DNA of 64,000 nucleotides from Mycolicibacterium neworleansense (lineage in GTDB: Bacteria; Actinomycetota; Actinomycetes; Mycobacteriales; Mycobacteriaceae): positions 62,001 to 126,000 of the forward strand of contig NZ_CWKH01000001.1 of NCBI RefSeq assembly GCF_001245615.1, given 5' to 3'. The notes under the pieces were generated by a model that saw only the letters and a list, made by a program, of their open reading frames with translations, did no database searches and was not told the origin of the DNA. This document shows positions 5,041 through 56,871 of the stretch, in pieces; position 1 is the stretch's first letter, and each line of letters starts with the position of its first letter. Made by a program: the position numbers and the translations under genes.

Positions 5041-5119
5041 ACGGTTCCCCTTCTTGCAACTGAGACTCTCTGGCTGAGAGAATAACATTCTCTTACCGGG
5101 TAAACCAGGGAGCAGATCA
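5041..5119. promoter_or_regulatory. Divergent promoter with palindromic operator AGAGAAT-AAC-ATTCTCT
   Basis: Bases 5077-5093 form a perfect 7-bp inverted repeat with a 3-bp centre between the HSD10-like SDR (-) and the thiolase (+). The same arrangement, GAGAAY-N3-RTTCTC, recurs at 9621-9637, 32582-32596, 32828-32842, 33619-33637 and 41940-41954. It is the size and symmetry expected for a TetR-family repressor and could control both genes. Confidence 0.75.
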
Positions 5120-6280
5120 ATGCCTGAAGCCGTCATCGTGTCCGCATTGCGTACCCCCATCGGCACGGCCAAGAAGGGCACGCTGCGCGACACCGACGCG
5201 TACGCGCTGGCTGACCACGTGGTGCGTGCTGCGGTCGAGGACCTCGCCGGGCACGGCACCGTCGGAGTCGACGACGTGATCCTGGGCGAAGGGCTCTATG
5301 GCGGCGGGGTCATCGCGCGCCATGCGGCCATCACCGCCGGCCTCACCACCGTCCCGGGGGCGGCCGTCAATCGGCACTGCGCCGCCGGCCAGGCCGCCGT
5401 GCAGAGCGCCGCGGCCAGCATCCGCGCCGGGATGGACCGGTTGGTTCTGGCCGGCGGGGTCAACTCGGCCTCCACCTCACCGCGGTTCATCCGCGCGGCC
5501 AGCAGCGCCAAAGATGCCGAGTGGGTGAACTGGTTCCCGCCCACCCATCCCGACCGACCGGACGCTCCGAACATGGACATGTCGATCACGGTCGGATGGA
5601 ACGCGGCCGTCAAGGCCGGGGTGAGCCGCGAGGAGATGGACCAGTGGGCGTTGGGCTCGCATCTCAAGGCCATCGCCGCGATCGACGAGGGCCGGTTCAA
5701 AGAGGAGATCGTTCCGATCCAGACACCGCACGGGCTGTTCGACACGGACGAGCATCCCCGCCGCGACACCACGCTGGAAAAGCTGGCCGCGCTGAAACCG
5801 CTGCATCCCGAGATCGAGGGATTCTCCATCACCGCAGGCAATGCCTGCGGTGCCAACGACGCCGCCGCACTGCTGACCATCGCCAGTGACGAGCTCGGCC
5901 TGCCGGCCCTGGCCACCATCAAGTCCTGGGCGTCAGTGGGGGTGGATCCGGCCTCGACCGGGCTGGCCCCGGTCGAGTCGATCACCAAAGCCCTTGACCG
6001 GGCCGGGCTTTCGCTGTCGGACGTGGACCTGTTCGAGATCAACGAGGCCTTCGCGTCGATGTGTGTGGCCACCATCAAGCTTCTCGACATCGACCCCGAG
6101 ATCGTGAACGTCAGCGGCAGCGGGTGCTCATTGGGGCATCCGGTGGCTGCCACCGGGGCACGCATGCTGGCCACCATGGTCCATGAGTTGCGCCGGCGCG
6201 GCGGCGGCATCGGCGTGGCCGCGATGTGCGCGGGCGGTGGGATGGGCTCGGCGACGGTCATCGAGGTGCCCGCACCGTAG
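5120..6280 (+). CDS. Acetyl-CoA C-acyltransferase (thiolase)
   Basis: A 386-aa thiolase with the nucleophilic cysteine at about residue 87 (NRHCAAGQAAVQ), the conserved NEAF loop, the GHPVAATGAR histidine motif and the C-terminal CAGGGMG cysteine motif. It would cleave a 3-ketoacyl-CoA with CoA, or run in reverse. It begins the + strand unit shared with the downstream GTPase and faces the HSD10-like SDR across the operator at 5077-5093. A hydroxyacyl dehydrogenase and a thiolase under one operator form a compact beta-oxidation pair. Confidence 0.92.
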   Translation: MPEAVIVSALRTPIGTAKKGTLRDTDAYALADHVVRAAVEDLAGHGTVGVDDVILGEGLYGGGVIARHAAITAGLTTVPGAAVNRHCAAGQAAVQSAAASIRAGMDRLVLAGGVNSASTSPRFIRAASSAKDAEWVNWFPPTHPDRPDAPNMDMSITVGWNAAVKAGVSREEMDQWALGSHLKAIAAIDEGRFKEEIVPIQTPHGLFDTDEHPRRDTTLEKLAALKPLHPEIEGFSITAGNACGANDAAALLTIASDELGLPALATIKSWASVGVDPASTGLAPVESITKALDRAGLSLSDVDLFEINEAFASMCVATIKLLDIDPEIVNVSGSGCSLGHPVAATGARMLATMVHELRRRGGGIGVAAMCAGGGMGSATVIEVPAP

Positions 6281-6291
6281 TGTCATCGCTG

Positions 6292-7164
6292 ATGCCAGAT
6301 ATCGAAGAACTCATCACCGCAGCCCGCGGCGGATCCCAGCGCGCCGTCGGCCGGTTGTTGAGCATGGTCGAAAGTGACCGTCGGGACGAGGTTCTCGCGG
6401 TGCTCGGCCCGGCCTCGCCGCGCGTCATCGGGATCACCGGGCCGCCCGGAGCCGGAAAGTCGACGACGGTGGGTGCTCTCGTCGGTGCCTACCGGGAGCG
6501 TGGCCTGCGGGTCGCGGTGCTCGCGGTGGATCCGTCGTCCCCGTACAGTGGCGGCGCGCTGCTGGGTGACCGGATCCGGATGGCCGCCCACATCAACGAT
6601 CCTGACGTACTGATCCGCTCGGTGGCCACCCGTGGTCATCTCGGTGGACTGGCTGCCGCTGTGCCTGCGGCGATTCGGCTGCTGGCCGCACTGTCGTATG
6701 ACCTGATCGTGCTGGAGACGGTCGGCGTGGGGCAATCCGAGATCGAGATCGCCGCGATCGCCGATCCGACCGTGGTGATCCTCAATCCCGGTGCGGGGGA
6801 CGCCGTCCAGGCGGCCAAGGCCGGGCTGCTGGAGGTCGCCGACCTGGTGGTGGTGAACAAGGCCGACCGAGAGGGTGCGGATCAGACTGCCCGTGACCTG
6901 CGGGCCGAGGCCAGTGTTCCCGTGCTGAAACTTGTTGCGGCCCAAGGGGAGGGACTGGCCGAGCTGGTCGAGGCCATTGACGCCCACCACCGGTCCGACA
7001 CATCGGAGCGCCGCAGCGCCCGGGCCAGGACGCAGATCCTGTCGCTGGCCCAGACCCTGCTGCGCAATCACGCCGAGTTGGACGGGCTGGCCGCCGCGGT
7101 GGCCGACGGCACCACGGACCCGTACAGCGCCGCGGCGCAATTGATCGCGGGCTCAGCCGGGTAG
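6292..7164 (+). CDS. MeaB/ArgK-family P-loop GTPase
   Basis: The 290-aa protein has a Walker A motif GPPGAGKST at residues 50-58, an ETVGVGQSE switch segment and NKAD as the guanine-specificity motif. These define the MeaB/ArgK family of GTPase chaperones that load and protect cobalamin-dependent acyl-CoA mutases. No mutase gene lies in this window, and the protein is about 40 residues shorter than typical MeaB. A GTG at 6280, overlapping the thiolase stop, is an alternative start. The partner may be elsewhere in the genome. Confidence 0.88.
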   Translation: MPDIEELITAARGGSQRAVGRLLSMVESDRRDEVLAVLGPASPRVIGITGPPGAGKSTTVGALVGAYRERGLRVAVLAVDPSSPYSGGALLGDRIRMAAHINDPDVLIRSVATRGHLGGLAAAVPAAIRLLAALSYDLIVLETVGVGQSEIEIAAIADPTVVILNPGAGDAVQAAKAGLLEVADLVVVNKADREGADQTARDLRAEASVPVLKLVAAQGEGLAELVEAIDAHHRSDTSERRSARARTQILSLAQTLLRNHAELDGLAAAVADGTTDPYSAAAQLIAGSAG

Positions 7165-9527: not shown

Positions 9528-9657
9528 CGCGCCCCTCCTTGACAGATAGAACCGCGAGAGTGATGCTCTGATAATAATGCACGCGGATGTGCGATATGTG
9601 AGCAAAGTGCTTACAAATTTGGAGAACAACGTTCTCCCTACCTCCGGAGAGGGGAAC
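9528..9657. promoter_or_regulatory. Divergent IclR/mhpC promoter with two palindromes
   Basis: Two operator-like palindromes lie side by side. The first, at 9598-9614, is GTGAGCA-AAG-TGCTTAC (6 of 7 pairs) and is a candidate IclR site. The second, at 9621-9637, is GGAGAAC-AAC-GTTCTCC, a perfect 7-bp inverted repeat of the GAGAAY-N3-RTTCTC class found elsewhere in the window. The second ends 20 bp before the mhpC start, a position suited to repression. Two regulators may therefore act on this promoter. Confidence 0.7.
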
Positions 9658-10566
9658 ATGACAAGCACTGCCGCCGGGCCGGCATCCGGTTCCGTTTCGG
9701 CCACCGAGCACGAGAGTGTCTGGGCTGACCTGCAGGGTGTCGCGTTCTCGCAGGGTTACCTCGACGTCGGCGGTGTCCGCACCCGCTACCTGCAGGCCGG
9801 CGACCCGAGCCTGCCGACGCTGGTCCTGCTGCACGGGTCGGGCGGACATGCCGAGGCCTATGTGCGCAATCTGGAATCTCATGCCCGGCATTTCTCGACG
9901 TGGTCGATCGACATGCTCGGCCACGGTTACACCGACAAGCCCGGGCACCCGCTGGAAGTCGCCCATTACGTCGATCACCTGATCGGTTTCCTGGACGCGA
10001 TCGGCGCGCAGCGCGCCCACATCTCGGGTGAGTCACTGGGCGGCTGGGTGGCCGCTCGGGCCGCCGCCGATCACCCGGACCGCATCGACCGTTTGGTGCT
10101 CAACACCGCCGGCGGCTCACAAGCCGACCCCGAGGTGATGAAGCGGATCATCACGCTGTCCATGGAGGCCGCGGAGAACCCGAGCTGGGAAACCGTGCGG
10201 GCGCGGATCAAATGGTTGATGGCCGACAAATCGAAGGATTACGACGACATCGTCGCCAGCCGGCAGGCGGTATACCGGCAGCCCGGATTCGTCGCCGCGA
10301 TGAGCGACATCATGGCACTGCAGGATCCAGAGATCCGCGCACGGAATCTGCTGGGGGAGAAGGAATACGGCTCGATCACCGCACCGACGCTGGTGTTGTG
10401 GACCAGCGACGACCCGACGGCCGACGTCAGTGAGGGCCGGCGTATCGCGTCGATGATCCCAGGCGCCCGGTTCGAGGTGATGCCCGACTGCGGGCACTGG
10501 CCGCAGTACGAAGACCCCGAGACGTTCAACCGGTTGCATCTGGACTTCCTGCTGGATGCGCAGTGA
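9658..10566 (+). CDS. mhpC: Meta-cleavage product hydrolase, MhpC-like (alpha/beta hydrolase)
   Basis: A 302-aa alpha/beta hydrolase with the nucleophile elbow GESLGG (Ser about residue 126), an acid in [10 protein letters not shown] and the catalytic histidine in DCGHWPQYE. The family hydrolyses the C-C bond of ring-fission products such as 2-hydroxy-6-oxononadienedioate. The functional call rests on its tight linkage to mhpA (4-bp GTGA overlap) and mhpB. HsaD of steroid degradation belongs to the same family. GAGAGGGG lies upstream of the ATG. Confidence 0.85.
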
Positions 10567-12242
10567 GCGAGCAAGAGGTCGACGTCCTCATCGTCGGGGC
10601 CGGGCCGGTGGGCCTGACCCTGGCGAATGCCCTTGGTATCAAGGGCGTCGCGACCCTTGTCGTGGAGGAACGTGACACCCTCATCGACTACCCGCGCGGG
10701 GTGGGGCTGGACGACGAATCGCTGCGCACCTTCCAGTCCATCGGACTGGTCGAGCCGATCCTGCCGCACACCGTACCCAACCAGATTCTGCGGTTCTACG
10801 ACGGCAACCGCCGGCTCCTGGCCGAAATGGCGCCTCCTGACGCACGGTTCGGCTGGCCCAAGCGCAACGGGTTCGTCCAGCCACTGGTCGATGCGCAACT
10901 GCTGGCCGGGCTGGACCGGTTCGAGCATGTTCAGGTGGCCTGGGGCCGCCGCATGGAGTCAGCGGTCGAGACCGCCGACGGTGTGACGGTCGAGTTCGGC
11001 CCGGACGTGCCCGCGGTGCGGGCGCGCTACGTGGTGGGGTGTGACGGCGGGCGCAGCGCCACCCGCCATCTCATGGGGGTGTCGTTCGACGGCACCACCT
11101 CGGCGACCCGATGGGTGGTGGTCGACCTGGCCAATGATCCACTGGGACACCCGAACAGCGAGGTCGGCGCCGACCCGGACCGGCCGTACGCCTCGATCTC
11201 GATCGCGCACGGCATCCGCCGGTTCGAGTTCATGATCCACGCCGACGAAACCGACGAGCAGGCCGAGGATCCCGAGTTCGTGGCGCGGCTGCTCGCTCCG
11301 TTCGTGCCGCATCCGGACAAGGTCGACGTGATCCGCCGCCGGGTCTACACCCACCACTCGCGCATCGCCGGGAACTTCCGCAAGGGCCGGTTCCTGTTGG
11401 CCGGCGACGCCGCGCATCTGATGCCGGTGTGGCAGGGCCAGGGCTACAACAGCGGGATCCGGGATGCGGCCAACTTGGGCTGGAAGCTGGCCGCGGTGGT
11501 CAAGGGGCAGGCCGGCGACGGACTGCTGGACAGCTACGACACCGAGCGCCGCAAGCATGCGCGCGCCATGATCGACCTGTCCACGTTGGTGGGGCGGGTC
11601 ATCTCGCCCACCAACCGCAAGGTCGCGGTGTTGCGGGACAAGTTGATTCGCGGTGCCTCGGTCGTTCCGGCACTCAAGCGCTATGTGCTGGAGATGCGGT
11701 TCAAGCCGATGCCGCGCTACGACCAGGGGGCGGTTTACCACCCGAAGCCGCCCACGCCGGAGTCGCCCACCGGCACGCTGTTCATCCAGCCGCGGGTGGA
11801 CACCCGCGAGCAGCCGAACGTCCTGCTCGACGATGTCATCGGGCTCAACTTCGCGGTGCTGTGCTGGAACAACAATCCGCGCGCACTGCTCGGCGAGCCG
11901 GCGTATGCGCGCTGGAAGGCCCTGGGCGCGAAGTTCATCGCCGCCCGGCCGCAGACGCAGTTGTTCTGGACCGGACACGATGCCGACCACGATGACGCCG
12001 TGGTCATCGTCGGGGACCGCACCGGGGCGCTCAAATCCTGGTTCGACGTACACGCCGAATCGGTGCTGGTCCTGCGGCCCGACCGGTGCATCGCCGGGGC
12101 CGACATCGCCCAGCGCGCCCCCGAACTGAGCAACGCCGTGTTCGACGTGCTGCACGTGCTGGAGGAAGGAGTGAACGGTGCCAGTAGCCCTGTGCTGTAT
12201 GTCCCACAGCCCACTGCTGAATCTTCCGGGACCGTCGGCTGA
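10563..12242 (+). CDS. mhpA: FAD-dependent aromatic hydroxylase, MhpA-like
   Basis: A 559-aa class A flavoprotein monooxygenase, near the length of E. coli MhpA. It has GAGPVG near residue 12, a [10 protein letters not shown] motif near 160 and [18 protein letters not shown] near 280, the last typical of the 3-(3-hydroxyphenyl)propionate hydroxylase group. It would hydroxylate a phenol ortho to its OH, giving a catechol for MhpB. Its GTG overlaps the mhpC stop. Its 3' end overlaps mhpB by 65 bp, unusually long for this operon. Confidence 0.88.
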
Positions 12243-13122
12243 ACTCCTCGACGAGATCAGAGCGGCGGTCGCGAGTGCTCGCCAGTTTGTCGCCGACTAC
12301 GACCCCGAGCTGGTCGTCACGTTCTCTCCCGACCACTACAACGGCTTCTTCTACCGGCTGATGCCTCCGTTCTGCATCGGCACCGCCGCATCCGGAGTGG
12401 GGGACTACGGGACGTACGAGGGTGCGCTCGACGTCGCCGGCGACATCGCTCAGGAGTGCGCACAGGCGGTGTGGGAGTCCGGGGTGGACATCGCGATATC
12501 GACGAGCATGGACGTCGACCACGGCACCGTGCAGCCGCTGCAGGAGTTGTTCGGCGAGGCAACCGCACGGCCCATCGTGCCGATCTTCATCAACTCGGTC
12601 GCCACCCCGCTGGGCCCGCTGTCGCGGTCCCGCGCTTTGGGGGCAGCCGTCGGCGCCTACCTGGCCACCCTCGACAAACGGGTACTGGTTCTGGGTTCCG
12701 GTGGGCTGTCGCACGATCCGCCGGTTCCGACACTGGCCACCGCGCCGCCGGCCGCGCTGGACCGGATCGTGCACGGGGCCCCGATGACCGCGGAACAGCG
12801 CATGGCCCGGCAGAGCGCGGTCAGTCAGGCCGCGCAGGATTTCGCCCACGGTGACAGTGCGTTGAGGCCGTTGAATCCCGCGTGGGACCACGGTCTGCTG
12901 GAGATCTTCGACGAGGGCCGGCTCACTGATCTGGACGGCTGGTCCAACACCTTCATCGCCATCGAAGGGGGCAATTCGGCACACGAGATCCGTACCTGGG
13001 TGGCCGCCTTCGCGGCGCTGGCAGCCAACGGGCCGTACCGGACCGGGAACCACTTCTACCGGGCGGCACCGGAATTGATCGCAGGATTCGCAATCAGGAC
13101 GGCAGTAGGAATCGCAGTATGA
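12178..13122 (+). CDS. mhpB: Extradiol ring-cleavage dioxygenase, MhpB-like (LigB fold)
   Basis: The protein is 314 aa, the same length as E. coli MhpB, and keeps the two key histidines: His115 in MDVDHG and His179 in GGLSHDPP. The N-terminal MSHSPLLN metal motif and the ASGVGDYG loop also match the class III extradiol family. It would cleave a catechol beside the diol using Fe(II). The GTG start at 12178 follows GGAGGAAGGA inside the mhpA 3' end. The ATG of the next gene overlaps its stop by 4 bp. Confidence 0.92.
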
Positions 13123-14915
13123 CCTCAGACACCAAGACGTTTGACGAAACGGTGGACGTGCTCATCGTCGGATCCGGCGGTGGTGGCATGACGGCGGCGC
13201 TGGCCGCCGATGCGGCCGGGCTCGACACCCTGGTGGTCGAAAAGTCCTCACATTTCGGCGGTTCCACCGCGCTCTCCGGCGGCGGCATCTGGGTGCCCGG
13301 CGCGCCCTCGCAACGCCGTGCCGGGTACGTGCCGTCGCCGGACGGGGTATTCGAGTACCTCAAGCAGATCACCGAAGGCACCGTCAGCGATGCCCGACTG
13401 CGCAAGTACGTCGAAGCCGCGCCGGAGATGATGGACTTCCTCGAGCACAACAGCGAGTGGTTCGAGTTCGTCTGGAAACCCGGCTACGCCGACTACTACC
13501 CGGAGCTGCCCGGCGGCTCCGCCCAGGGCAGCACCATCAACGTCCCGGCCATCGACCTGCGCAAGCTCGGCGAGCACGAGCAGGAACTGCTTGCCCCGCT
13601 GGCGTTGGCGCCCAAGGGAATCTGGTTCGCGCCCAAGGACCTTCGGCTCTTCTACCAGGTCCGGCAGAACTGGCGCGGCAAGGCCGTGTTGCTGAAGCTG
13701 ATCTGGCGGATGGTGCGGGCCCGGCTATTCGGGGACCGCATGGCCGCCATCGGCCAGTCACTGGCTGCCCGGATGCGCCTGGCGCTCAAACAGCACGACA
13801 TCCCGCTGTGGCTGGACGCGCCGATGACCTCGCTGATCACCGATGCCGACGGGACAGTGCTGGGCGCCGTCGTCGAGCGCGATGGCAAGCCGCAGCGGAT
13901 CCGGGCCACCGGGGGCGTGATCCTGGCCTCAGGGGGATTCGATCACGACATGGCGTGGCGCAAGGAGCACCTACCGGTCCTCGAGAAGGACTGGAGCTTC
14001 GGCAATCCGGCGGCCACTGGCGACGGTATCCGGGCGGGCGAGAAAGCCGGCGGCGCCACCGAATTGCTGGACGAGGCATGGTGGTTCCCGGCCATCTGCT
14101 GGCCTGACGGCCGACTGCAGTTCATGCTCAACGAGCGCATGATGCCGTCACAATTCGTGGTCAACGGCGACGGCAAGCGGTTCATCAACGAAGCCGCGCC
14201 CTACATGGACTTCGCCCACGCCATGATCAACGGGCAAGAATCCGGAGTCGCCCACATCCCGTGCTGGCTGGTAACCGACATCGACTCGTTCCACCGGTAC
14301 GTGGTCGCCGGGCATCTGCCCATCCCGAAGATTCCGTTCGCGCCGGTGCCGACCGGGCGAAAAGTACCCCGGGCCTGGCTGGATTCAGGTGTCGTGGTCG
14401 AAGCGCACAGCTGGGAGGAACTGGCCGGCAAGATCGGTGTGCCCGCGGAGAATCTGCGCGCCACCGCCGAGCGGTTCAACCAGTTGGCGCACGGCGGGCA
14501 CGACGACGACTTCAACCGCGGTGACAGCGCATACGACAACTACTACGGGGACCCCACCCTGCCGAATCCTAATCTGCGCCCGCTCGGCAAGCCGCCGTAC
14601 TACGCGTTCCAGATCATCCTCGGCGACCTGGGCACCTCCGGCGGTCTGCGTACCGACGAACACGCCCGGGTCCTGCGCGCCGACGAGTCCGTCGTCGAGG
14701 GGCTCTACGCGGTCGGCAATGTCTCGGCAGCCGTCATGGGGCGCAGCTACGCCGGTGCGGGCGCGACCATCGGGCCCGCGATGACCTTCGGGTATGTAGC
14801 GGCCCGGCACATCGCCGATCTGTCCGCAGAAAACCGTGCCGTGCAACCAGTCTCGCAAGGTGCCAACCAATCAGTCCAGGACACCGTCAGCAACCCCTCA
14901 GGAGGAGACCGATGA
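13119..14915 (+). CDS. 3-Ketosteroid delta1-dehydrogenase-like flavoprotein
   Basis: A 598-aa FAD protein closely patterned on Kst[11 protein letters not shown] near residue 18, [16 protein letters not shown] near 46, [12 protein letters not shown] near 126, and [20 protein letters not shown] near 546. The tyrosines in the DYYPE and SYAGAG segments fit KstD catalytic positions. KstD desaturates ring A of 3-ketosteroids. Here it is embedded between mhpB and a luciferase-like gene, so it may instead desaturate another cyclic ketone toward a phenol. The last 30 residues are a polar tail. Confidence 0.88.
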
Positions 14916-16219
14916 AGATTTCGCTGTTCTACGAGTTCCCACTGCCCCGGCCGTGGTCGGAGGATGACGAACATCAGCTGTTCCAGCACGGCCTGACCGA
15001 GGTGGAGGCCGCCGACAAGGCCGGCTTCTCCACCGTCTGGCTCACCGAGCATCACTTCCTCGAGGAGTACTGCCATTCCACCGCGCCGGAGATGTTCCTG
15101 GCCGCCGCCAGCCAGCGCACCAAGGACATCCGGCTGGGGTTCGGTGTCATGCACCTGCCGCCACCGATCAATCACCCGGCCCGCATCGCCGAACGCGTCG
15201 CCACCCTGGATCACCTGTCCAACGGGCGCGTGGAGTTCGGCACCGGTGAGGGTTCCTCGGTCGCCGAGCTCGGTGGGTTCGACATCGACCCGGCCGACAA
15301 GCGCACGATGTGGGAAGAGGCCCTTGAGGTTTCGATCCGCTGTATGACCGAGGCGCCGTTCACCGGTTTCAAGGGTGAGCATGTCGAGATGCCCGCCCGC
15401 AACGTGATCCCCAAGCCGCTGCAGAAGCCGCACCCGCCGGTCTGGGTGGCCTGCACCCGCCCGTCCTCGGTGCAGATGGCGGCGCAGAAGGCCATCGGTG
15501 CGCTGAGCTTCGCCTACACCGGCCCCGAGGCGCTCAAGGAGCGGGTCGACGGGTACTACAAGGAATTCGAAGAGCAGGGTGCGCCCATCACCCCGGCGAT
15601 CAACCCCAACATCCTGGCCATCGGCGGTGACCTGTCGATGATGGTGGCCCGCTCCGATGACGAGGCACTCAAGCGCCTCGGTATCGGTGGTGGCTTCTTC
15701 TCGTTCGGGATCATGCACTACTACCTGACCGGCATGCACACGCCCGGCCGCACCAAGGTGTGGGAGCGATACGAAGAGGCGGTCAAGGAAGATCCGACGC
15801 TGGCCTACGGACCCGGCCGCGGCGCCATCGGTTCACCCGACACCGTGCGGGAATTCCTGCGCAGCTACGAGGCCAGCGGTGTCGACGAGATCATCTTGCT
15901 GCTCAACCCGCGCAGCCACGAGGGCACCATGGAGTCCATCGAGATCATGGGTAAGGAGATTCTGCCCGAGTTCATCGAGCGAGATGCGAAGGCGGTGGCG
16001 GACAAGGCCAAACGTCTGGAACCGGTGATCGAGAAGGTCGAGTCGCGCCGCCGGCCTTCGGAGGCGCCGCTGTTCGACGAGACCTACGCCTTCGGCGGCC
16101 TGCCCACCGGCCGCGACAAGTTCACCGCCGGCGAGATCCCCGAGGCGATGGCCGAGATCAACGAGGGCCGCGTCAAGGCCGCCGCGGCTGAGAAGGCAGC
16201 TCGCGAAGCAGCCGGCTGA
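14912..16219 (+). CDS. Luciferase-like flavin-dependent oxidoreductase
   Basis: A 435-aa LLM-family TIM-barrel protein with FYEFPLPRPW at the N-terminus, WLTEHHFLEEY near residue 44 and GTGEGSSVAELGGF near 111. It probably works as a two-component monooxygenase using reduced FMN, and the FMN reductase gene at 18063 in the same operon could supply it. F420-dependent activity is the alternative. The C-terminal 70 residues are a charged extension rich in Lys, Glu and Ala. It starts in an ATGA overlap with the KstD-like gene, preceded by AGGAGGA. Confidence 0.85.
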   Translation: MKISLFYEFPLPRPWSEDDEHQLFQHGLTEVEAADKAGFSTVWLTEHHFLEEYCHSTAPEMFLAAASQRTKDIRLGFGVMHLPPPINHPARIAERVATLDHLSNGRVEFGTGEGSSVAELGGFDIDPADKRTMWEEALEVSIRCMTEAPFTGFKGEHVEMPARNVIPKPLQKPHPPVWVACTRPSSVQMAAQKAIGALSFAYTGPEALKERVDGYYKEFEEQGAPITPAINPNILAIGGDLSMMVARSDDEALKRLGIGGGFFSFGIMHYYLTGMHTPGRTKVWERYEEAVKEDPTLAYGPGRGAIGSPDTVREFLRSYEASGVDEIILLLNPRSHEGTMESIEIMGKEILPEFIERDAKAVADKAKRLEPVIEKVESRRRPSEAPLFDETYAFGGLPTGRDKFTAGEIPEAMAEINEGRVKAAAAEKAAREAAG

Positions 16220-16221
16220 CC

Positions 16222-17055: not shown

Positions 17056-17057
17056 GC

Positions 17058-18056: not shown

Positions 18057-18062
18057 GGAATC

Positions 18063-41344: not shown

Positions 41345-41364
41345 CTACCTACTTTCTTCTTGAG

Positions 41365-44658: not shown

Positions 44659-44674
44659 GGAGATATCCAGTTCA

Positions 44675-45433: not shown

Positions 45434-45437
45434 CGTT

Positions 45438-46688: not shown

Positions 46689-46706
46689 GTTCTAGAGGAG
46701 AATCCC

Positions 46707-47864
46707 ATGCGCGAAACCGTCATCGTTGAGGCCGTCCGCACCCCGGTCGGCAAGCGTAACGGCGGCCTGTCCGGTTTTCACGCCGCCGACCTGTCGGCAC
46801 TGGTGCTCAATGCGCTCGTGGAGCGGGCGGGCATCAGCCCCGAAATCGTCGACGACGTGGTCTGGGGCTGCGTCTCTCAGGTCGGTGATCAATCCAGCAA
46901 CATCGGCCGGTACTCGGTACTGGCAGCAGGCTGGCCCGAACACATTCCGGGAACCACGGTCAACCGGGCCTGCGGATCCAGCCAACAGGCGCTGGATTTC
47001 GCGGTCCAGGCCGTGATGTCCGGCCAGCAGGACGTGGTCGTCGCTGGTGGGGTGGAGGTGATGAGCCGGGTCCCGCTGGGTGCGGCGCGGGCCACCGGCA
47101 CTCCGTACGGCCCGAAAGTGTTCGAGCGGTACAAGGACTTCGGGTTCAACCAGGGCATCTCGGCCGAGATGATCGCGCAGAAGTGGGGTTTCAGCCGGAC
47201 CCGGCTCGATGAATACTCCGTGGCCTCACACGAGCGGGCCGCGGCCGCCCAGGATCGCGGCGCCTTCGAGAACCAGATGATCACGGTGTTCCCCGACCCG
47301 GCTGACCAGCTGGACCCGGTCGTCGCCGACGAGGGTGTCCGGCGCGGCACCACGGTGGAGAAACTGGCCGGCCTCAAGCCGGCGTTCGCCGAGGACGGGG
47401 TGATCCATGCCGGCAACTCCTCGCAGATCTCCGACGGTGCCGCGGCCCTGCTGGTGATGACCGCCGAAAGCGCTGTGACGATGGGCCTTTCGCCGATCGC
47501 GCGGTACCGGGCGGGCGCGGTGACGGGCGCCGATCCGGTGCTGATGCTGACCGGGCCGATCCCGGCTACCGAGAAGGTGCTGCACAAGGCCGGCGTGCGA
47601 CTCGATGAGATCGGCGTGTTCGAGGTGAACGAGGCGTTCGCCCCGGTGCCCCTGGCCTGGTTGGCCGAGACGGGCGCCGACGAAGCCAAACTGAACCCGC
47701 TCGGCGGCGCCATCGCGCTGGGGCATCCGCTCGGCGCATCGGGCGCGGTGCTGATGACCCGGATGATCAATCACATGCGCGACAACGGAATTCGTTACGG
47801 CTTGCAGACCATGTGTGAGGGCGGCGGTACCGCCAACGCCACGCTGGTCGAGCTCATCGACTGA
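46707..47864 (+). CDS. Acetyl-CoA C-acyltransferase (thiolase), FadA5-like pattern
   Basis: A 385-aa thiolase with nucleophile Cys89 (NRACGSSQQAL), GHPLGASGAVLM and CEGGGTANA. The N-terminal RTPVGKRNGGLSGFHAADL and WGCVSQVGDQSSNIGR segments resemble the group that includes mycobacterial FadA5, a steroid side-chain thiolase. It would release acetyl- or propionyl-CoA. TAGAGGAGA lies ahead of its ATG, and the acyl-CoA dehydrogenase follows after 15 bp. Confidence 0.92.
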   Translation: MRETVIVEAVRTPVGKRNGGLSGFHAADLSALVLNALVERAGISPEIVDDVVWGCVSQVGDQSSNIGRYSVLAAGWPEHIPGTTVNRACGSSQQALDFAVQAVMSGQQDVVVAGGVEVMSRVPLGAARATGTPYGPKVFERYKDFGFNQGISAEMIAQKWGFSRTRLDEYSVASHERAAAAQDRGAFENQMITVFPDPADQLDPVVADEGVRRGTTVEKLAGLKPAFAEDGVIHAGNSSQISDGAAALLVMTAESAVTMGLSPIARYRAGAVTGADPVLMLTGPIPATEKVLHKAGVRLDEIGVFEVNEAFAPVPLAWLAETGADEAKLNPLGGAIALGHPLGASGAVLMTRMINHMRDNGIRYGLQTMCEGGGTANATLVELID

Positions 47865-47879
47865 CGCTAGGGAGAAGTA

Positions 47880-49040
47880 GTGCAACGCAATCTGTTCACC
47901 GAGGACCACGAGGCGTTTCGCGCGCTGGCGCGCGATTTCATCGAAAAGGAAGTCGTCCCTGCCTATCCCGAGTGGGAAAAGGGCGGCCGGATGCCCCGTG
48001 ACGTCTTCAAGCAGATGGGTGAACTCGGCATGCTGGGGATGGCGATCCCCGAGGAGTACGGCGGCGCGGGCATCGACGACTACCGCTACAACGTGGTGCT
48101 GCAGGAGGAGGCCGCGCGGGCGCTGGTGACGTTGTCGACGGTGCGCACGCAGCTCGAGGTGATCCTGCCGTACTTCCTGCACTACGCGAACGAAGAGCAG
48201 CGGCAGCGGTGGTTCCCGGGTCTGGCCGCGGGGACGCTGCTGACCGCGGTCGCGATGACCGAGCCGGGGACCGGCTCTGATCTGGCCGGCATGCGCACCA
48301 CCGCGGTGCGCTCGACTGATTCGCAAGGCGACCACTACGTGCTCAACGGGGCCAAGACGTTCATCACCGGCGGTATCCAGGCTGATCTGGTGGTCGTGGT
48401 GGCGCGGACGTCCACCGACCCGGAGAACCGCCGTAAAGGTTTGACGCTGCTGGTCGTCGAGGACGGCATGGCCGGCTTCGAGCGGGGCCGCGAGCTGGAG
48501 AAGATGGGCTGCAAGGTGCAGGACACCGCGGAGCTGTCGTTCACCGATGTGCGGGTTCCCGTGACCAACGTGCTGGGGGAGGAGGGCGAGGCCTTCAGCT
48601 ACCTCGGCCACAACCTCGCCCAGGAGCGGCTCACCGTGGCGGTGGGTTCGGTGGCCCAGGCCCGCTCGGCGATCGCCGCGGCGATCGGCTACACCAAGGA
48701 CCGCAAGGCATTCGGCCTGCCGGTGGCGTCGTTTCAAAACACCAAGTTCGAACTCGCGGCGTGCTCGACGGAGGTCGAAGCGGCCCAGGCGATGCTGGAC
48801 CGGGCGGTGGCGCTGCACGTCGACGGTGAGTTGTCCGGTGCCGACGCGGCCCGGGTGAAGTTGTTCTGCACCGAGATGCAGGCGCGGGTGATCGATCGTT
48901 GCCTGCAGCTCTTCGGTGGGTACGGCTACATGATGGAGTACCCCATCGCGCGGCTCTACACGGACGCGCGGGTGGCACGCATCTATGCCGGCACCAGCGA
49001 GGTGATGAAGGTGATCATCGCCAAGTCTCTGGGCCTCTGA
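47880..49040 (+). CDS. Acyl-CoA dehydrogenase
   Basis: A complete 386-aa enzyme beginning QRNLFTEDHEAFRALARDF, with AMTEPGTGSDLAGMRTT near residue 126, KTFITGG near 160 and C-terminal RIYAGTSEVMKVIIAKSLGL. The C-terminal position used as base by short- and medium-chain enzymes is Ala (YAGTSE), as in many mycobacterial FadEs that carry the base on another helix. It ends the right-hand operon. The GTG start is preceded by GGAGAAG. Confidence 0.9.
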   Translation: MQRNLFTEDHEAFRALARDFIEKEVVPAYPEWEKGGRMPRDVFKQMGELGMLGMAIPEEYGGAGIDDYRYNVVLQEEAARALVTLSTVRTQLEVILPYFLHYANEEQRQRWFPGLAAGTLLTAVAMTEPGTGSDLAGMRTTAVRSTDSQGDHYVLNGAKTFITGGIQADLVVVVARTSTDPENRRKGLTLLVVEDGMAGFERGRELEKMGCKVQDTAELSFTDVRVPVTNVLGEEGEAFSYLGHNLAQERLTVAVGSVAQARSAIAAAIGYTKDRKAFGLPVASFQNTKFELAACSTEVEAAQAMLDRAVALHVDGELSGADAARVKLFCTEMQARVIDRCLQLFGGYGYMMEYPIARLYTDARVARIYAGTSEVMKVIIAKSLGL

Positions 49041-49109
49041 CCGGGCGAGCCCGGCGGTTGTGACGGCCGTCGGGAAATACTTTTCCTGAGACGCTTGTCA
49101 CAGCGGTCA

Positions 49110-49141
49110 AACCAACTTACTGTGTGTTCACTAGGTTGGTT
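49110..49141. promoter_or_regulatory. 32-bp palindromic operator of the TetR gene
   Basis: The outer arms AACCAAC and GTTGGTT pair perfectly, and inner TTA/TAG and TG/CA pairs bring the match to 11 of 16. The element ends 15 bp before the TetR GTG start, as expected for autorepression. Its sequence is unrelated to the GAGAAY-N3-RTTCTC set. Confidence 0.72.
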
Positions 49142-49156
49142 CGACGAAGGAGTCGT

Positions 49157-49834
49157 GTGGCTTCGGTTTCTGGTTTACAGGCGCAGTCCGAGGGCGTGCG
49201 GCCCTACGAGACGCTCCTGGCCAAAGGGGAAGACCGCAGGCAGCGGATACTTTCCGTGGCTGAGAAGCTGCTGGCGCGCAATGGGTGGCGTAACACCTCG
49301 CTGGCGCAGATCGCCAGGGAGGTCGGGGTCACGCCGGCCGGTCTACTCCACCATTTCGAGTCCAAGGAGCAACTGCTGAACGCGGTGCTCGATGCGCGCG
49401 ATCACGACGACGACACCCACGCCGACCGGTCCGGTGATCTCGCCGAGGAGATCAAGCGGGTGGCCGAGCGGTTCGTCCGCGCGCCCGAGCTGGTCGGCAC
49501 CTTCACCGTGCTGCTGGTCGAGAACATCCAACCGGACGCTCCGTTGCACGATCGTTTGCTGAAACGACAGCAGGCGGCGCGCGACATCGTCGCGGACATC
49601 ATCACCCGTGGCCAGCTCAGCGGCCGCTATCGCACCGACTTCGACGCGGCCACCAAGGCCGTGGAAATCCTGGCATTCATCAATGGAATGGAGACCTCAT
49701 GGCTACTCGATCCCTCGCTCCCGTTGACGGACGTGTTCAACAGCTACGCGGAGATGCTGGGGAGGGACTTGGGGCAGGGCCTCGGGGAGGGCACAGAGCA
49801 GCCGGCCGGCCGCAACGGGGCGGCCGTCCAGTGA
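49157..49834 (+). CDS. TetR-family transcriptional regulator
   Basis: A 225-aa regulator with a helix-turn-helix at about residues 28-72 (ILSVAEKLLARNGW, then LAQIAREVGVTPAGLLHHFESKEQLL) and a TetR C-terminal domain. GTG 49157 follows AAGGAG; an upstream frame to 49124 would cover the operator. The operator at 49110-49141 suggests autoregulation. The gene is followed after 14 bp by a 167-aa unknown gene. Confidence 0.88.
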   Translation: MASVSGLQAQSEGVRPYETLLAKGEDRRQRILSVAEKLLARNGWRNTSLAQIAREVGVTPAGLLHHFESKEQLLNAVLDARDHDDDTHADRSGDLAEEIKRVAERFVRAPELVGTFTVLLVENIQPDAPLHDRLLKRQQAARDIVADIITRGQLSGRYRTDFDAATKAVEILAFINGMETSWLLDPSLPLTDVFNSYAEMLGRDLGQGLGEGTEQPAGRNGAAVQ

Positions 49835-52188: not shown

Positions 52189-52545
52189 ATGACCGCTGAG
52201 GAGATCGTGCGCGCCGAGATCGCCGCGTGGGGGAGCAACGACGTCGAGGAGGTCATGAGCCACTTCGCCGACGACGCCACCTTCGACATCGGGCCCGACT
52301 GGCCGAAGCTGACCGGGCGCGACGCGATCCACGAGATGATGAAGGTGTTCTTCGCCGGCGGGAAATGCGTGGACCTCGAAATTCTGCATCTCGCCGTGGA
52401 CGGGGATGTCGTGTTGATGGAACGGCGCGATCACTGGATCGTGGACGGCAAGCAGATGAGCTGGCCGGTCATGGGCGCTTACGAGGTGCGGGACGCGAAG
52501 ATCACGGCGTGGCGGGAGTACTTCTACCCGCCGAAGGAGTCCTGA
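52189..52545 (+). CDS. Limonene-epoxide-hydrolase/SnoaL-like protein
   Basis: A 118-aa cone-fold protein. VLMERRDHW near residue 76 keeps the Arg-x-Asp pair of limonene-1,2-epoxide hydrolases (R-x-D), and ITAWREYFY matches the third acid region with Glu in place of Asp. It may hydrate an epoxide, perhaps one made by the divergent P450. It could also be a non-enzymatic NTF2-like protein. Its 3' end overlaps the convergent oxidoreductase by 44 bp. Confidence 0.75.
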   Translation: MTAEEIVRAEIAAWGSNDVEEVMSHFADDATFDIGPDWPKLTGRDAIHEMMKVFFAGGKCVDLEILHLAVDGDVVLMERRDHWIVDGKQMSWPVMGAYEVRDAKITAWREYFYPPKES

Positions 52546-53503
52546 GCTCGATCACCACCTTGCCCACGGCCTTCCCCGCCGCCACCTCCTGTAGCGCCGC
52601 GGCGGCTTGGTCCAGTGGATAGACCGCACCGATGTGTGGACGGACGGTGCCGGTCGCCAATAAGTCCCGCAGTTCGGCTTCGTTGCGGCTGAACTCGTCC
52701 GCGGCGACGTCCTGGAACTGAAAACCAAGGATCTGAATCCCCTTGACCAGAACCAGGTTCAGTGGGATGCGGGGGATGATGCCGGAGGCGTAGCCGATCG
52801 TCACGAACCGGCCGCCGCGGCGCAGTGTCCGCAATGCCGGCTCGGACAGGTCGCCGCCGACCGGATCGAGGACCGCATCCGCACCGTCGGGCAGGGCGTC
52901 GCGCAGCGCGGCGCGTAGGTCTGCGCGCGCGTGCTTGATGAGCGAGACCGCACCGTATTGCGCTGCAGTGGAGAGCTTTTCGTCCGACGAGGCCACCGCC
53001 GTGACCCGCGCGCCGAGGGCGGTTGCGAGCTGTACAGCAGCCAGACCCACGCCGCCGCCGGCGCCCAGCACGATCACGTCGTCGCCCGGTTGGATCCGGG
53101 CCACCGAGCGCAACGTGTGATACGCGGTGCGGTGAGCCACCCCGAAGGCCGCCGCGGCGCCGTCGTCCACACCGCCGGGAATCCGGGCCAGCCCGGTCGC
53201 CGGAACACACACCTGCTCGGCGAACGCACCGAACAATCCGGTGCCGGTCACCCGGTCGCCGACGGCGAAACCGTCAGTGTCAGCCGCGACCTCGGTGACC
53301 ACCCCGGCGAACTCACTACCCGGGATGAACGGCACCGGTACGTGGATCTGGTACTTGTCGGCGACCAGCAGCACATCGGGGAAGTTCACCGCGGCCGCGC
53401 CGACCTGGACCCGTACCTGGCCGGACTCCAGCGGGGGAGCGGGGACGTCTTCGAGGCGAACGACATCCGGAGGCCCGTGCTGCGGGCAGACCGCGGCCCT
53501 CAC
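52502..53503 (-). CDS. Quinone oxidoreductase-like MDR protein
   Basis: A 333-aa medium-chain reductase of the zinc-free NADPH:quinone oxidoreductase type. It has AAVNFPDVLLVADKYQ near residue 36, GSEFAGVV near 62 and the nucleotide motif GAGGGVGLAAVQLA near 148, and lacks zinc cysteines. It would reduce an enone or quinone. The GTG at 53503 overlaps the stop of the phosphotransferase (GTGA). It is third in an operon with the dehydrogenase at 54549. Confidence 0.87.
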   Translation of the reverse strand: MRAAVCPQHGPPDVVRLEDVPAPPLESGQVRVQVGAAAVNFPDVLLVADKYQIHVPVPFIPGSEFAGVVTEVAADTDGFAVGDRVTGTGLFGAFAEQVCVPATGLARIPGGVDDGAAAAFGVAHRTAYHTLRSVARIQPGDDVIVLGAGGGVGLAAVQLATALGARVTAVASSDEKLSTAAQYGAVSLIKHARADLRAALRDALPDGADAVLDPVGGDLSEPALRTLRRGGRFVTIGYASGIIPRIPLNLVLVKGIQILGFQFQDVAADEFSRNEAELRDLLATGTVRPHIGAVYPLDQAAAALQEVAAGKAVGKVVIELRTPSAGRSTPATP

Positions 53504-54552
53504 CGGTAGTCGGTGGATTCGGCGAGTTCGGCGGCAGAGCGCATCAGCTCGGTGACCACCGGTCCGAACGCCAGCAGCTTCTCGTCGTCGCCGGCCCGCT
53601 GAAAACCCTGCTCCAGGACGATCGCCAGCTTCCATTTCGCCAGCACCAGGTAGTAGTCCAGATCGTCGACCTGGCGTCCGGAGACCTTCGCGTAGTGCGC
53701 GACGACGTCGTCACGCGAAGGCATTCCGCGCATGTCGACATAACCCATCTCCGACGGCTCCGGGTTGTCGGGATCGGAGGGCCAACTCTGCACCATCCAG
53801 GCCAGGTCCAACTTCGGGTCGCCGACGGTCCCCATCTCCCAGTCCACGATGGCGGCCATCGTGGCCGGGGCGCCGTGGCGGTACATGACATTGGCGAACT
53901 GGTAGTCGCCGTGCATCAGGCCGGGGATGAAGTCGAGTGGCTTGTGCGCGCGCAGCCAGTCGGTGGCGACGTCGAGATCCGGCAGATCACGGTTCTTGAT
54001 CCGGTCGAGGAACCCGATCCAGCGGTCGACCTGGCGTTCGTGGAAACCGTCGGGCCGACCGAGATCGGCCAGCCCCTTGGCCTGCCAATCCACCTTCGAC
54101 AGCAGTGCAATACCCTCGGCCAGCTGATAACTCAGCGCCGGGCGGGTACTCATGTCGGTGTTGAAAGGCTCGGGCCAACGGCCGTGGGTGTCCATCGGAG
54201 ACCAGCCGTCGACGAAACCCATCAGATAGAAGGGCCGGCCCAGCACGTCCGGATCCGCGCACACTCCGATCGCCGCGGTGTGCGGGACATCGGTACCGTC
54301 GAGCGCCTCGATGATGCGCCACTCCCGCAGGATGCCCTTGTCCCGGTCCGGCGGCGCCCCGGCCGGAGGCATGCGCAGGACGCAGGTGTGGTCGCCACGG
54401 CGGATCTCGTAGATGACATTCTGGGTGCCCCCGGACAGGAAGCGGGCCTCCAGTGGTTCGCCCTTGCCGGGCAGGCCCGCGTTGTCCATCCAATCGGCAA
54501 GTCGCGCAGTGTCGAGACCGTGCATGCGAGGAGCAGAATCAGATTGCGTCAC
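53500..54552 (-). CDS. Acyl-CoA dehydrogenase-linked phosphotransferase (ACAD10/11-like kinase domain)
   Basis: A 350-aa kinase-fold protein with an intact catalytic loop MHGDYQFANVM near residue 223 and the metal motif IVDWEMGTVGDP near 245. In ACAD10/11 of animals this domain is fused to an acyl-CoA dehydrogenase and phosphorylates a hydroxyacyl-CoA on the way to dehydration. Here the dehydrogenase is the neighbouring gene, with a GTGA overlap. This supports catabolism of a 4-hydroxyacyl-type CoA ester. The longer frame to 55023 is noise. Confidence 0.87.
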   Translation of the reverse strand: MTQSDSAPRMHGLDTARLADWMDNAGLPGKGEPLEARFLSGGTQNVIYEIRRGDHTCVLRMPPAGAPPDRDKGILREWRIIEALDGTDVPHTAAIGVCADPDVLGRPFYLMGFVDGWSPMDTHGRWPEPFNTDMSTRPALSYQLAEGIALLSKVDWQAKGLADLGRPDGFHERQVDRWIGFLDRIKNRDLPDLDVATDWLRAHKPLDFIPGLMHGDYQFANVMYRHGAPATMAAIVDWEMGTVGDPKLDLAWMVQSWPSDPDNPEPSEMGYVDMRGMPSRDDVVAHYAKVSGRQVDDLDYYLVLAKWKLAIVLEQGFQRAGDDEKLLAFGPVVTELMRSAAELAESTDYR

Positions 54553-55850
54553 AGGTTGCCCACCTCGGCCTCCAGGAACTCGGCGAACTTCGCCTTGGCG
54601 GCTTCGCGTTTGCGGGGTATCCACTCGGTCGGCCAGGTGTCGGTGGTCGGCTGGTAATCGCGCAGCACCTGCCGGGCGACCGTGGTCTTGTGTACCTCGG
54701 TCGGGCCGTCGGCCAGCCCCATCACCGCGGCGCCGGTGACCATGCCCAAAAACGGCATCTCGTTGGTGACGCCGAGTGCGCCATGGACCTGCATTGCCCG
54801 CCAGGCGATGTCGTGCAGCACGGTGGGCATCGCCACCTTGACCGCGGCGATGTCCTTGCGGACCTTCTTGTAGTCGTTGTACTTGTCGATCTCCCACGCC
54901 GTGTAGAGCACCATCAACCGGAACTGCAGCAACTGGGCATACGAGTCGGCGATGTAGCCCTGGACGAACTGCTTGTCGGACAGCCTGCTGCCCTGGGTCT
55001 CGCGGCTCAGTGCGCGTTCGCACATCATGTCCAGTGCCTTCTGGGCCAGGCCGATCGTGCGCATCGCGTGGTGAATCCGTCCGCCGCCCAACCGGGTCTG
55101 GGCGATCACGAACGCCTGCCCCTCGCCGCCAAGCAGGGCCGCGGCGGGTACCCGGACATTGTCGTAGTGGATCAGCGCGTGGCTGCCGTGATTGTCCGCT
55201 TCGCCGTACAGGCCCACATTGCGGACGATCTTGACGCCGGGTGTGTCGGTGGGCACCAGGAACATCGACATGCCCTGATAGGCGCTGACCTCGGGGTTGG
55301 TGACCACCATGACGATCAGGAACGACGCGGTTGCGGCGTTGGAGGAGAAGAACTTCCAGCCGTTTATCACCCAGTCGTCCCCGTCGCGTACCGCGCTCGT
55401 GGTGAACAGCGTCGGGTCCGCTCCGGCGTGCGGCTCGGTCATCGAGTAGCAGGAGAACAGTTCACCCTCGAGCAGCGGATGCAGATATTGCTTCTTCTGC
55501 TCCTCGGTGCCGTAATGCGCGATGATCTCGGCGTTGCCGGTGTCGGGGGCCTGACACCCGAACACGATCGGAGCCCACTGTGAGCGCCCGAGGATCTCGT
55601 TGAGCAGCGCCAATTTGAGCTGACCGTAGCCCTGCCCGCCCAGTTCCGGACCGAGATGTGTGGCCCACAAACCTTTTTCGCGCACCTGCGCCTTGAGCGG
55701 GTCGATCGCTTCCCTGCGCTTGCCCTCCAGCTGGGTGAACTGCAGGTGGGGCCAGGCCAGGTCGAGCGGCTCGACCTGTTCGGTGACGAATTCGTCTGCC
55801 CAGTCCAGTAGTTCCTGATACTCGGGGTCAGTCTCGAAATCCCACGCCAT
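54549..55850 (-). CDS. Acyl-CoA dehydrogenase, ACAD10/11-like
   Basis: A 433-aa dehydrogenase with SMTEPHAGADPTLFTTSA near residue 136, WVINGWKFFSSNA near 160 and ALGVTNEMPFLGMV near 367. It ends with VHKTTVARQVLRDY and a basic tail. The EPHAGADP form and the WKFFSSNA motif are typical of the ACAD10/11 group rather than classic FadEs. Its partner kinase overlaps its 3' end. It is downstream of a TetR gene by 15 bp and likely belongs to its operon. Confidence 0.9.
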   Translation of the reverse strand: MAWDFETDPEYQELLDWADEFVTEQVEPLDLAWPHLQFTQLEGKRREAIDPLKAQVREKGLWATHLGPELGGQGYGQLKLALLNEILGRSQWAPIVFGCQAPDTGNAEIIAHYGTEEQKKQYLHPLLEGELFSCYSMTEPHAGADPTLFTTSAVRDGDDWVINGWKFFSSNAATASFLIVMVVTNPEVSAYQGMSMFLVPTDTPGVKIVRNVGLYGEADNHGSHALIHYDNVRVPAAALLGGEGQAFVIAQTRLGGGRIHHAMRTIGLAQKALDMMCERALSRETQGSRLSDKQFVQGYIADSYAQLLQFRLMVLYTAWEIDKYNDYKKVRKDIAAVKVAMPTVLHDIAWRAMQVHGALGVTNEMPFLGMVTGAAVMGLADGPTEVHKTTVARQVLRDYQPTTDTWPTEWIPRKREAAKAKFAEFLEAEVGNL

Positions 55851-55865
55851 CGGGGGCCCTCCGAT

Positions 55866-56522
55866 CTAGTTGTTGGGGTGGTTGAAGCCGGTGATCATCG
55901 CACCGATGTCGCGTGCGACGACGTCGGTGAACGAGCGGTCGCCGAAACTGCCGCCGGCCCAGTGCCGGACGCCTTCACTGACCAGGATCTGGGCCAGCCG
56001 GGAGAGGTGCTGCACGTCGACGTGGGAACCGAGCCGGCCGTCGGCCTTGGCGCGGGTGAACAACTCGCCGAACATGTCGGCGTCGTGCGCGTCCGGATCG
56101 ATCTCTCCGGCCAGGATCCGGTGCTCGTGCCGGTATCCCTCCAGGATCGTCTCGACGATCAGGTCGGGTGGGTTACGCGCCATGGACCGCTCGAGGCTGC
56201 GTAGCGCCTCGGTGATCACGGTCATCACGTCGTACTCGCCGACCAGTAACGATTTCACTCGCTTCTGCGCGAGTCGGGTAGAGGTCAGGCCCACTTCGAA
56301 CAGCACGTCTTCTTTGGCCGGGAAATAGAAGTAGAACAGGGCCCGGGATACCCCCGCAGCGCGGCAGATATCGGTGACCGTGGTCTTGGCGTAGCCGTTC
56401 GTACGCCAGAGGGCCATCGCGGCCTGAACCAGATCGCGCTTGGTCTGGTGCGAACGGGCACGCTGGAAGGACGCGCGGCGTTGACTGCCGTCAGCAGTGT
56501 CTGTCGCGGTTCCCTTGGCCAT
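55866..56522 (-). CDS. TetR-family transcriptional regulator
   Basis: A 218-aa regulator with a clear helix-turn-helix (LVQAAMALWRTNGY, then TVTDICRAAGVSRALFYFYF, about residues 31-68). It is the first gene of an operon with the ACAD10/11-like dehydrogenase, kinase and quinone oxidoreductase, so it probably represses that operon. ATG 56522 is used; GTG 56531 is an alternative, and no good ribosome site precedes either. An imperfect palindrome lies at 56558-56580. Confidence 0.85.
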   Translation of the reverse strand: MAKGTATDTADGSQRRASFQRARSHQTKRDLVQAAMALWRTNGYAKTTVTDICRAAGVSRALFYFYFPAKEDVLFEVGLTSTRLAQKRVKSLLVGEYDVMTVITEALRSLERSMARNPPDLIVETILEGYRHEHRILAGEIDPDAHDADMFGELFTRAKADGRLGSHVDVQHLSRLAQILVSEGVRHWAGGSFGDRSFTDVVARDIGAMITGFNHPNN

Positions 56523-56871
56523 CTTCCGCACTCTAACAACGGATACGGGTATTGAGAATAGTTGACGTTTGTCTAACTATCTCTGAATCGACACACCGCT
56601 GCGCGACCGCCGGTGAGCTGGTTGCCGAGCATTCCGGGCCAGGTCGTGGCCGATGAGATCGACTACCTCGCCGACGCCTGAAGGCCACGATCGGCCGAGA
56701 CCGTGATGGCCGACCGATGATGCTGGGCGGTTAAGCCCGAGAATCCTATTCTTGCTGCTTGTCGCAGATGAGTCGGGGTCCGACGTTGACGCACAACCGG
56801 GCCTGTGGAAATCTACTATTCATAGATGAGAGCCGCATTCTCATACCCTGCGGCTGGAACGGGAGCAGCTG
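56523..56871. promoter_or_regulatory. 349-bp divergent region between TetR and P450 genes
   Basis: At 56558-56580 ATAGTT-GAC-GTTT and GTCTAACTAT form an imperfect inverted repeat, probably the operator of the adjacent TetR. At 56826-56844 ATGAGA-N7-TCTCAT resembles the GAGAAY-N3-RTTCTC class in its right half and lies 27 bp before the P450 start. I see no gene in the middle; a 22-codon frame at 56613-56681 could be a coding remnant. Confidence 0.6.

Follow-up and report, generated by a model that had tools for sequence, protein, structure and literature searches.

Introduction

The systems closest in design to the one reported here are the TetR-type repressors KstR and KstR2. The locus in question is a 64,000-nucleotide stretch of the Mycolicibacterium neworleansense genome (positions 62,001 to 126,000 of contig NZ_CWKH01000001.1, hereafter C1; "the window" denotes this whole stretch), in which the palindrome GAGAAYNNNRTTCTC recurs in front of catabolic genes and of a TetR-family gene, tetR1. 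KstR, as described in passages of PMC1995591, is an autoregulated TetR-type repressor, conserved in mycobacteria, of many dispersed lipid-catabolic genes, a design like that proposed here for TetR1; its own promoter carries the palindrome TAGAAC(N2)GTTCTA, and the operator partly overlaps the -10 region of that promoter. KstR2, according to passages of PMC3068626, is a TetR repressor with the motif AnCAAGnnCTTGnT at three sites, a palindrome that lies between divergent genes and, at most of them, 22-39 bp ahead of the start. FadR-type TetR repressors of Bacillus and Thermus respond to acyl-coenzyme A (acyl-CoA), and by their entry titles FadR acyl-CoA complexes have been deposited as structures. 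The Pseudomonas dit cluster for catabolism of diterpene resin acids combines a P450 with a ring-hydroxylating oxygenase (passages of PMC13063091).

The present system differs from each of these. The AGAAC half-site is common to the KstR and TetR1 palindromes, but the KstR operator TnnAACnnGTTnnA has a 2-bp centre and the TetR1 sites a 3-bp centre, a contrast already drawn in the original prediction for this locus and in agreement with the passages of PMC1995591; the target genes differ as well. TetR1 scores 18.8 bits against the NCBIfam KstR model (cut-off 280) and matches KstR2 with an E-value of only 0.006; it is a member of neither family. Within the window the KstR pattern has a single match (10525; 0.2 expected), which coincides with none of the sites described here; the KstR2 operator AnCAAGnnCTTGnT has no match in the window. 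KstR2 does resemble TetR1 in palindrome placement and is among its fold neighbours, although its three sites (PMC3068626, in part) compare with ten in the TetR1 regulon. FadR-type repressors rank with the best matches of TetR1 in both sequence and fold, at about 20% identity and with 27 bits on the FadR model against a cut-off of 200. The likeness to the dit cluster, whose layout and regulator differ in the passages of PMC13063091, lies in a DitZ relative encoded at 42105-43427 and in the presence of a P450 and a ring-hydroxylating oxygenase; the place of DitZ in dit catabolism is taken from its name, which does not occur in those passages. A likeness to steroid-hormone response elements was dropped, as the spacing differs. 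Among the papers listed by searches of the open-access literature none deals with the motif or the regulator, and none was found to contain the palindrome sequences themselves; judged against that literature, the regulon is likely undescribed so far.

We propose that GAGAAYNNNRTTCTC is the operator of TetR1 and that TetR1 acts as the autoregulated repressor of a dispersed catabolic regulon, a reading to which we assign a probability of roughly 0.88.

Results

The palindrome is over-represented and clustered

Exact copies of GAGAAYNNNRTTCTC are found at 5078-5092, 9622-9636, 32828-32842, 33621-33635 and 41940-41954 of the window, five where 0.01 are expected, and none of 100 shuffled sequences reached five; the recurrent GAGAAY-N3-RTTCTC palindrome of the original prediction is thus real. 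Allowing up to one mismatch gives eight sites in the window, against 0.24 expected from shuffles, the additional ones being 32582-32596, 56739-56753 and 56828-56842. All sites of the original prediction were recovered; the region 42061-42099, which it had given as half-sites, contains a two-mismatch palindrome (42073-42087), and it had missed 56739-56753. Its claim that all sites have a 3-bp centre was borne out. The site at 33619-33637 is a perfect palindrome of 9+9 bp about a single base.

A random density of the motif across the genome had been named beforehand as an outcome that would refute the proposal. In 6,287,317 bases there are ten exact sites, all on C1 between 61,171 and 362,044 (301 kb), compared with one match for the reversed control pattern. 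Half of these sites lie outside the window, extending the regulon beyond the earlier list. One mismatch yields 34 further sites (four control matches in all), of which 11 fall in C1:29165-205253 (62 per Mb), a stretch picked after the sites were seen, and the other 23 are spread over the rest of the genome at 3.8 per Mb. Judged from the predicted gene map or, for C1:362030, from the list of open reading frames (ORFs), all but one of the ten exact sites fall outside genes. The tenth, at 9622, is intragenic on the map owing solely to the upstream start chosen there; an ATG at 9658, with GGAGAGGGG before it, lies 22 bp past the palindrome. At C1:61171 the site shares 11 bp with a ferredoxin gene, going by the start predicted for the latter. 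Among ten one-mismatch sites placed on the gene map, seven are intergenic and three intragenic.

Sites precede the same orthologues in other genomes

Placement was compared between this genome and eight others, which contribute 74 exact sites (three of the nine sites of genome G082 were left out). Sixty-five of the 74 stand no more than 600 bp ahead of a gene that has a homologue in C1:40001-226000, in some cases a paralogue; four are associated with the korA-like operon and five were left unassigned. In all nine genomes a site precedes tetR1, another precedes the amidohydrolase gene at C1:178684 (with its centre 30-31 bp ahead of the start codon), and a third, here 41940-41954, separates the CMD/Rieske operon from that of the DitZ-like amidohydrolase. 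Sites precede an acyl-CoA ligase gene (here behind C1:61171) and the acyl-CoA dehydrogenase pair at C1:134091 in eight of nine genomes each, and a thiolase or short-chain dehydrogenase/reductase (SDR) gene in six of nine, corresponding here to the operator at 5078-5092. The P450 orthologue has an exact site in five of the eight other genomes and one-mismatch sites in our own. The mhp operon has one, here 9622-9636, in this genome and G020 alone (two of nine). The recurrence of sites ahead of orthologous catabolic operons from genome to genome supports the proposal of a single catabolic regulon.

TetR1 is the probable regulator

The tetR1 gene (32845-33591, minus strand) would encode 248 amino acids from a TTG at 33591, with an in-frame ATG at 33564. 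Its product matches the N-terminal helix-turn-helix (HTH) family of TetR proteins (Pfam TetR_N, PF00440) with 30.9 bits (cut-off 24), and its structural model is an all-helical TetR fold whose first helix is long (mean predicted local distance difference test score, pLDDT, 76), the best fold matches of which are TetR proteins. The match to the SbtR-like C-terminal domain PF21597 (23.7 bits) is under the cut-off of 27. HTH residues are almost unchanged in 17 aligned orthologues from several genera. Residues 36-60 form a basic stretch ahead of the usual HTH, unusual for a TetR N-terminus and almost invariant in the same orthologues; this stretch may touch DNA.

Between tetR1 and a divergent crotonase gene lies the exact operator 33619-33637 (15-mer 33621-33635). 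An exact site occupies this upstream position in every one of 80 named loci, which are the best 80 of 378 relatives and of which those closest in TetR1 sequence (97-98% identity) include loci of Mycolicibacterium peregrinum, houstonense, setense and senegalense, a likeness by which the window probably belongs to the fortuitum group; it also does so in 30 of 30 loci of one set and in nine of nine loci from other genera (L195-L203). G016 has tetR1 in two copies, one of them without an upstream site. The original prediction had placed its best palindrome in front of the TetR gene, and this stands for 33621-33635; the copy at 32828-32842, tetR1 being on the minus strand, is instead a second exact operator just past the stop codon. 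An exact site within 260 bp past the stop is present at 56 of the 80 named loci (L049-L128); its median distance from the upstream site is 794 bp, and in many cases only 2-4 bp separate its start from the stop codon. The two flanking operators show weak helical phasing (mean resultant length about 0.39, 56 loci), and looping between them is therefore not claimed.

Site number follows the presence of TetR1. Protein presence was scored at an E-value below 1e-80 in 98 genomes of the genus, which are related and hence not independent samples. The 80 that have TetR1 carry a median of 9 exact sites, with at least five in 76; the 18 scored as lacking it, including G070 with only a 69-residue piece (81% identity), have a median of 0 and a range of 0-2. 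Elsewhere in the family, 186 genomes from other genera were scored: 32 have TetR1 (a median of 7.5 sites, and five or more in 24 of them) and 154 do not (median 1 site, four genomes with five). Because TetR1 co-occurs with the sites, has one at its own promoter, accompanies sites before the same orthologues and keeps its HTH nearly invariant, we regard it as the likely binder. The original prediction had named the same protein, and the co-occurrence with site number together with the operator at all 80 named loci favours that assignment.

Operators overlapping promoters

Arms are constant across sites and the centre is variable. Among 83 distinct sites, 60 have T and A as their two inner bases, 6 have C and G, and 17 are mixed. 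When T and A are followed by a further A, the centre reads TANNAT, a possible -10 box. Of 59 such orientations, 17 have a TTG 17 bp ahead of this hexamer, where 0.8 would be expected per position; almost all of these instances come from two promoter families and so are not independent. They comprise nine of nine amidohydrolase operators and seven of nine operators between tetR1 and its divergent neighbour. The palindrome centre there doubles as a -10 box, which makes occlusion of that box a natural mechanism and suggests repression of this kind at the two families.

The mechanism we propose is as follows. Without inducer, a TetR1 dimer would occupy the palindrome and block its own gene (autoregulation) along with about ten catabolic operons over some 300 kb; at two or more promoter families, TetR1 sitting on the embedded -10 box would keep RNA polymerase out. 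Release would then be brought about by an intermediate of the pathway, most likely an acyl-CoA. That the inducer is an acyl-CoA we hold at about even odds; it is plausible because the sequence and fold neighbours of TetR1 include acyl-CoA-binding FadR proteins and KstR2.

Genes under the predicted operators

The first operon begins outside the window at C1:61251, behind the operator at C1:61171, and continues on the plus strand through 1-3351 with genes for an acyl-CoA ligase, an acyl-CoA dehydrogenase pair and an enoyl-CoA hydratase. Operator 5078-5092 lies between divergent genes for an SDR (4276-5040, minus strand; the HSD10-like protein of the original prediction, with NCBIfam SDR models none of which is above its cut-off among the matches listed) and for a thiolase followed by a MeaB-like protein (5120-7164, plus strand; Pfam). 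Behind 9622-9636, an operon at 9658-20280 (plus strand; Pfam and NCBIfam) encodes an mhpC/hsaD-like hydrolase, MhpA, MhpB, a KstD-like flavoprotein, a luciferase-like protein, SDRs, a cyclase, an FMN reductase and a hydrolase; MhpA and MhpB are above their NCBIfam cut-offs, and the match to the HsaD model is below its own. The one-mismatch site 32582-32596 precedes an SDR gene (31600-32445, minus strand; Pfam).

Divergent from tetR1 are genes for a crotonase and a HAMP/adenylate-guanylate cyclase (33744-36051, plus strand; Pfam). The cyclase gene (34570-36051) comes next after the crotonase gene, and the regulon may therefore include a cyclic-nucleotide signal. On either side of operator 41940-41954 are an operon for an acyl-CoA dehydrogenase pair, a SnoaL-like protein, amidohydrolase-1, a Rieske oxygenase and a CMD protein (36095-41925, minus strand; Pfam) and one for the DitZ-like amidohydrolase, acyl-CoA dehydrogenases, an SDR, a class III CoA-transferase, a thiolase and a second TetR protein, TetR2 (42105-49834, plus strand, with TetR2 at 49124-49834; Pfam). 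A minus-strand group at 52502-56531 (Pfam) contains a third TetR gene (TetR3, 55866-56531), an acyl-CoA dehydrogenase gene, a phosphotransferase-like gene and one further ORF (52502-53503) without annotation. The phosphotransferase (53500-54525) is of APH/EcKL type, and homologues of about 50% identity stand behind an exact operator in G086, G007 and G057. The one-mismatch site 56739-56753 lies between the TetR3 and P450 genes, and 56828-56842 directly before the latter (56872-58152, plus strand).

Outside the window, sites precede the acyl-CoA dehydrogenase pair (C1:134043), an amidohydrolase gene and, after it, that of a ligase which exceeds the FadD3-family cut-off (C1:178647) and an SDR gene (C1:205239). 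The site at C1:362030 (L048:12030-12044) stands some 240 bp ahead of a korA-like 2-oxoacid:ferredoxin oxidoreductase operon, a placement shared with G034, G020, G082 and G090 (five of nine genomes); a CRP-like box adjoins it. A general CRP layer is not claimed, the CRP-type pattern having two matches in the window against 5.7 expected.

Enzymes and candidate substrate

The predicted operators would control genes for CoA ligases, crotonases, thiolases, acyl-CoA dehydrogenase pairs, SDRs, a ferredoxin, a Rieske oxygenase, a CYP150-like P450 and amidohydrolases. For one long acyl-CoA dehydrogenase subunit the closest solved structures, over its first two thirds, are 6wy9 (Tcur3483) and 4x28; two-gene enzymes of this kind are known to act on steroid CoA esters. 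The amidohydrolase at 42105-43427 aligns over residues 12-412 of 440 with 8uyr, deposited as DitZ (E-value 1e-108); a protein-collection search with it returned generic names (amidohydrolase, TIM-barrel hydrolase) in the best 120 of 7872 matches, and its model, made without an alignment (mean pLDDT 36), was not used. Four PF04909 amidohydrolases lie at or beside operators (42105-43427; C1:131528-133852; C1:178684-179874), one DitZ-like and another 4dzi-like. The Rieske protein has carnitine monooxygenase and ring-hydroxylating oxygenases as its nearest solved structures. The KstD-like flavoprotein exceeds the cut-off of an unnamed FAD-binding subfamily, its scores on the ketosteroid dehydrogenase models being below theirs. 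The P450 is closest to CYP150A6 (6dcd, E-value 8.8e-150); a CYP150A5 oxidises beta-ionone, according to passages of PMC6237146.

The acyl-CoA dehydrogenases, the DitZ-like amidohydrolase, the P450, the KstD-like flavoprotein and the FadD3-family ligase together lead us to suggest, tentatively and at somewhat less than even odds, that the substrates are polycyclic terpenoid- or steroid-like acids; resin acids in particular are a still less certain candidate.

Discussion

Alternative explanations

Several findings weigh against TetR1 as the repressor acting through these sites. Four TetR1-positive genomes of the genus (G026, G056, G063 and G089) have just 0-2 sites, and eight from other genera have 1-3. 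In 20 tetR1 neighbourhoods that were read, all twelve of these genomes included, half of the twelve (G026, G063, G089, G170, G185 and G191) have no upstream site within one mismatch and yet keep the HTH nearly unchanged; the other six do have one. Two-mismatch remnants of the operator lie upstream of tetR1 in G026, G089 and G191, and the site-poor genomes may reflect erosion of the regulon. Conversely, four TetR1-negative genomes of other genera carry five sites each; at the 12 of these 20 loci that were read, ten sites have no adjoining homologue of the genes in C1:40001-226000 and three lie within long ORFs, a picture that fits unrelated sites. The other operators of our own genome have no TTG at 15-20 bp, and -10 occlusion is indicated at two promoter families only. 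Finally, across the 98 genomes site number correlates slightly better with TetR2 (r 0.89) than with TetR1 (r 0.85).

That correlation, and the presence of TetR2 in 72 of the 98 genomes, all with at least five sites, would fit a scheme in which TetR2 is the main binder and TetR1 a passenger. We consider this improbable: there are 7, 6 and 9 sites in G057, G076 and G091, which have no TetR2 (and 8 in G041, scored TetR2-absent with only a contig-end piece), TetR2 never occurs without TetR1, and the TetR2 gene of our own genome has no site within one mismatch immediately ahead of it, in contrast to tetR1 at all named loci. TetR3 adjoins two one-mismatch sites, and all 33 genomes that have it carry at least five sites, but 43 of the 65 that lack it do so too, which contradicts a role as general binder and leaves this possibility negligible. 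Equally slight is the probability that the sites belong to the KstR or KstR2 steroid regulons; despite the half-site of the KstR palindrome (PMC1995591, in part), the centre is 3 bp everywhere, within the window the KstR pattern lies away from the sites and that of KstR2 is missing, and TetR1 is far below the KstR cut-off (18.8 versus 280 bits). As for a chance, structural or terminator-like repeat without a regulator, 23 of the 34 one-mismatch sites do lie elsewhere in the genome and a genome that lacks TetR1 typically has about one site; the shuffles, the reversed controls, the co-occurrence, the conserved places and the constant arms about a variable centre contradict chance or a repeat and make this explanation, too, exceedingly improbable.

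A more serious alternative, in our judgement unlikely, accepts TetR1 as the binder and changes its role: it might activate, or the regulon might serve ordinary fatty-acid or aromatic catabolism rather than polycyclic acids. Crotonase, thiolase and acyl-CoA dehydrogenase genes are general, the MhpA/MhpB operon stands behind a site in our own genome, and the nearest folds to TetR1 include fatty-acid FadR proteins. Activation, however, is ill-suited to operators that overlap a -10 box; the conserved core (DitZ-like and 4dzi-like amidohydrolases, CYP150-like P450, Rieske oxygenase and paired acyl-CoA dehydrogenases) exceeds the needs of fatty-acid degradation; and the mhp operon has a site in only two of nine genomes. 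We retain TetR1 as the probable autoregulated repressor, its binding and repression at the sites being predicted from sequence.

Significance

A broader and more speculative picture, which we offer as possible with slightly less confidence than the class of substrate, is that TetR1 heads an unnamed master regulon for catabolism of polycyclic lipids, with non-sterol substrates such as diterpene resin acids, widespread in Mycobacterium and several related genera beside KstR and KstR2. It would be tied to central metabolism and signalling through the 2-oxoacid:ferredoxin oxidoreductase operon and the cyclic AMP-type cyclase, both behind the shared operator, with TetR2 and TetR3 as a second tier.

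The proposed regulon gathers scattered mycobacterial catabolic genes of unexplained purpose into a single unit that can be put to the test, its operator and regulator being defined; it also provides a route to the substrate, namely whatever releases TetR1 from DNA. TetR1 and its short operator could act as a sensor for polycyclic natural products. Genomes without the regulator are also without sites, some retaining remnants, and the regulon may thus mark lineages that dropped an environmental diet.

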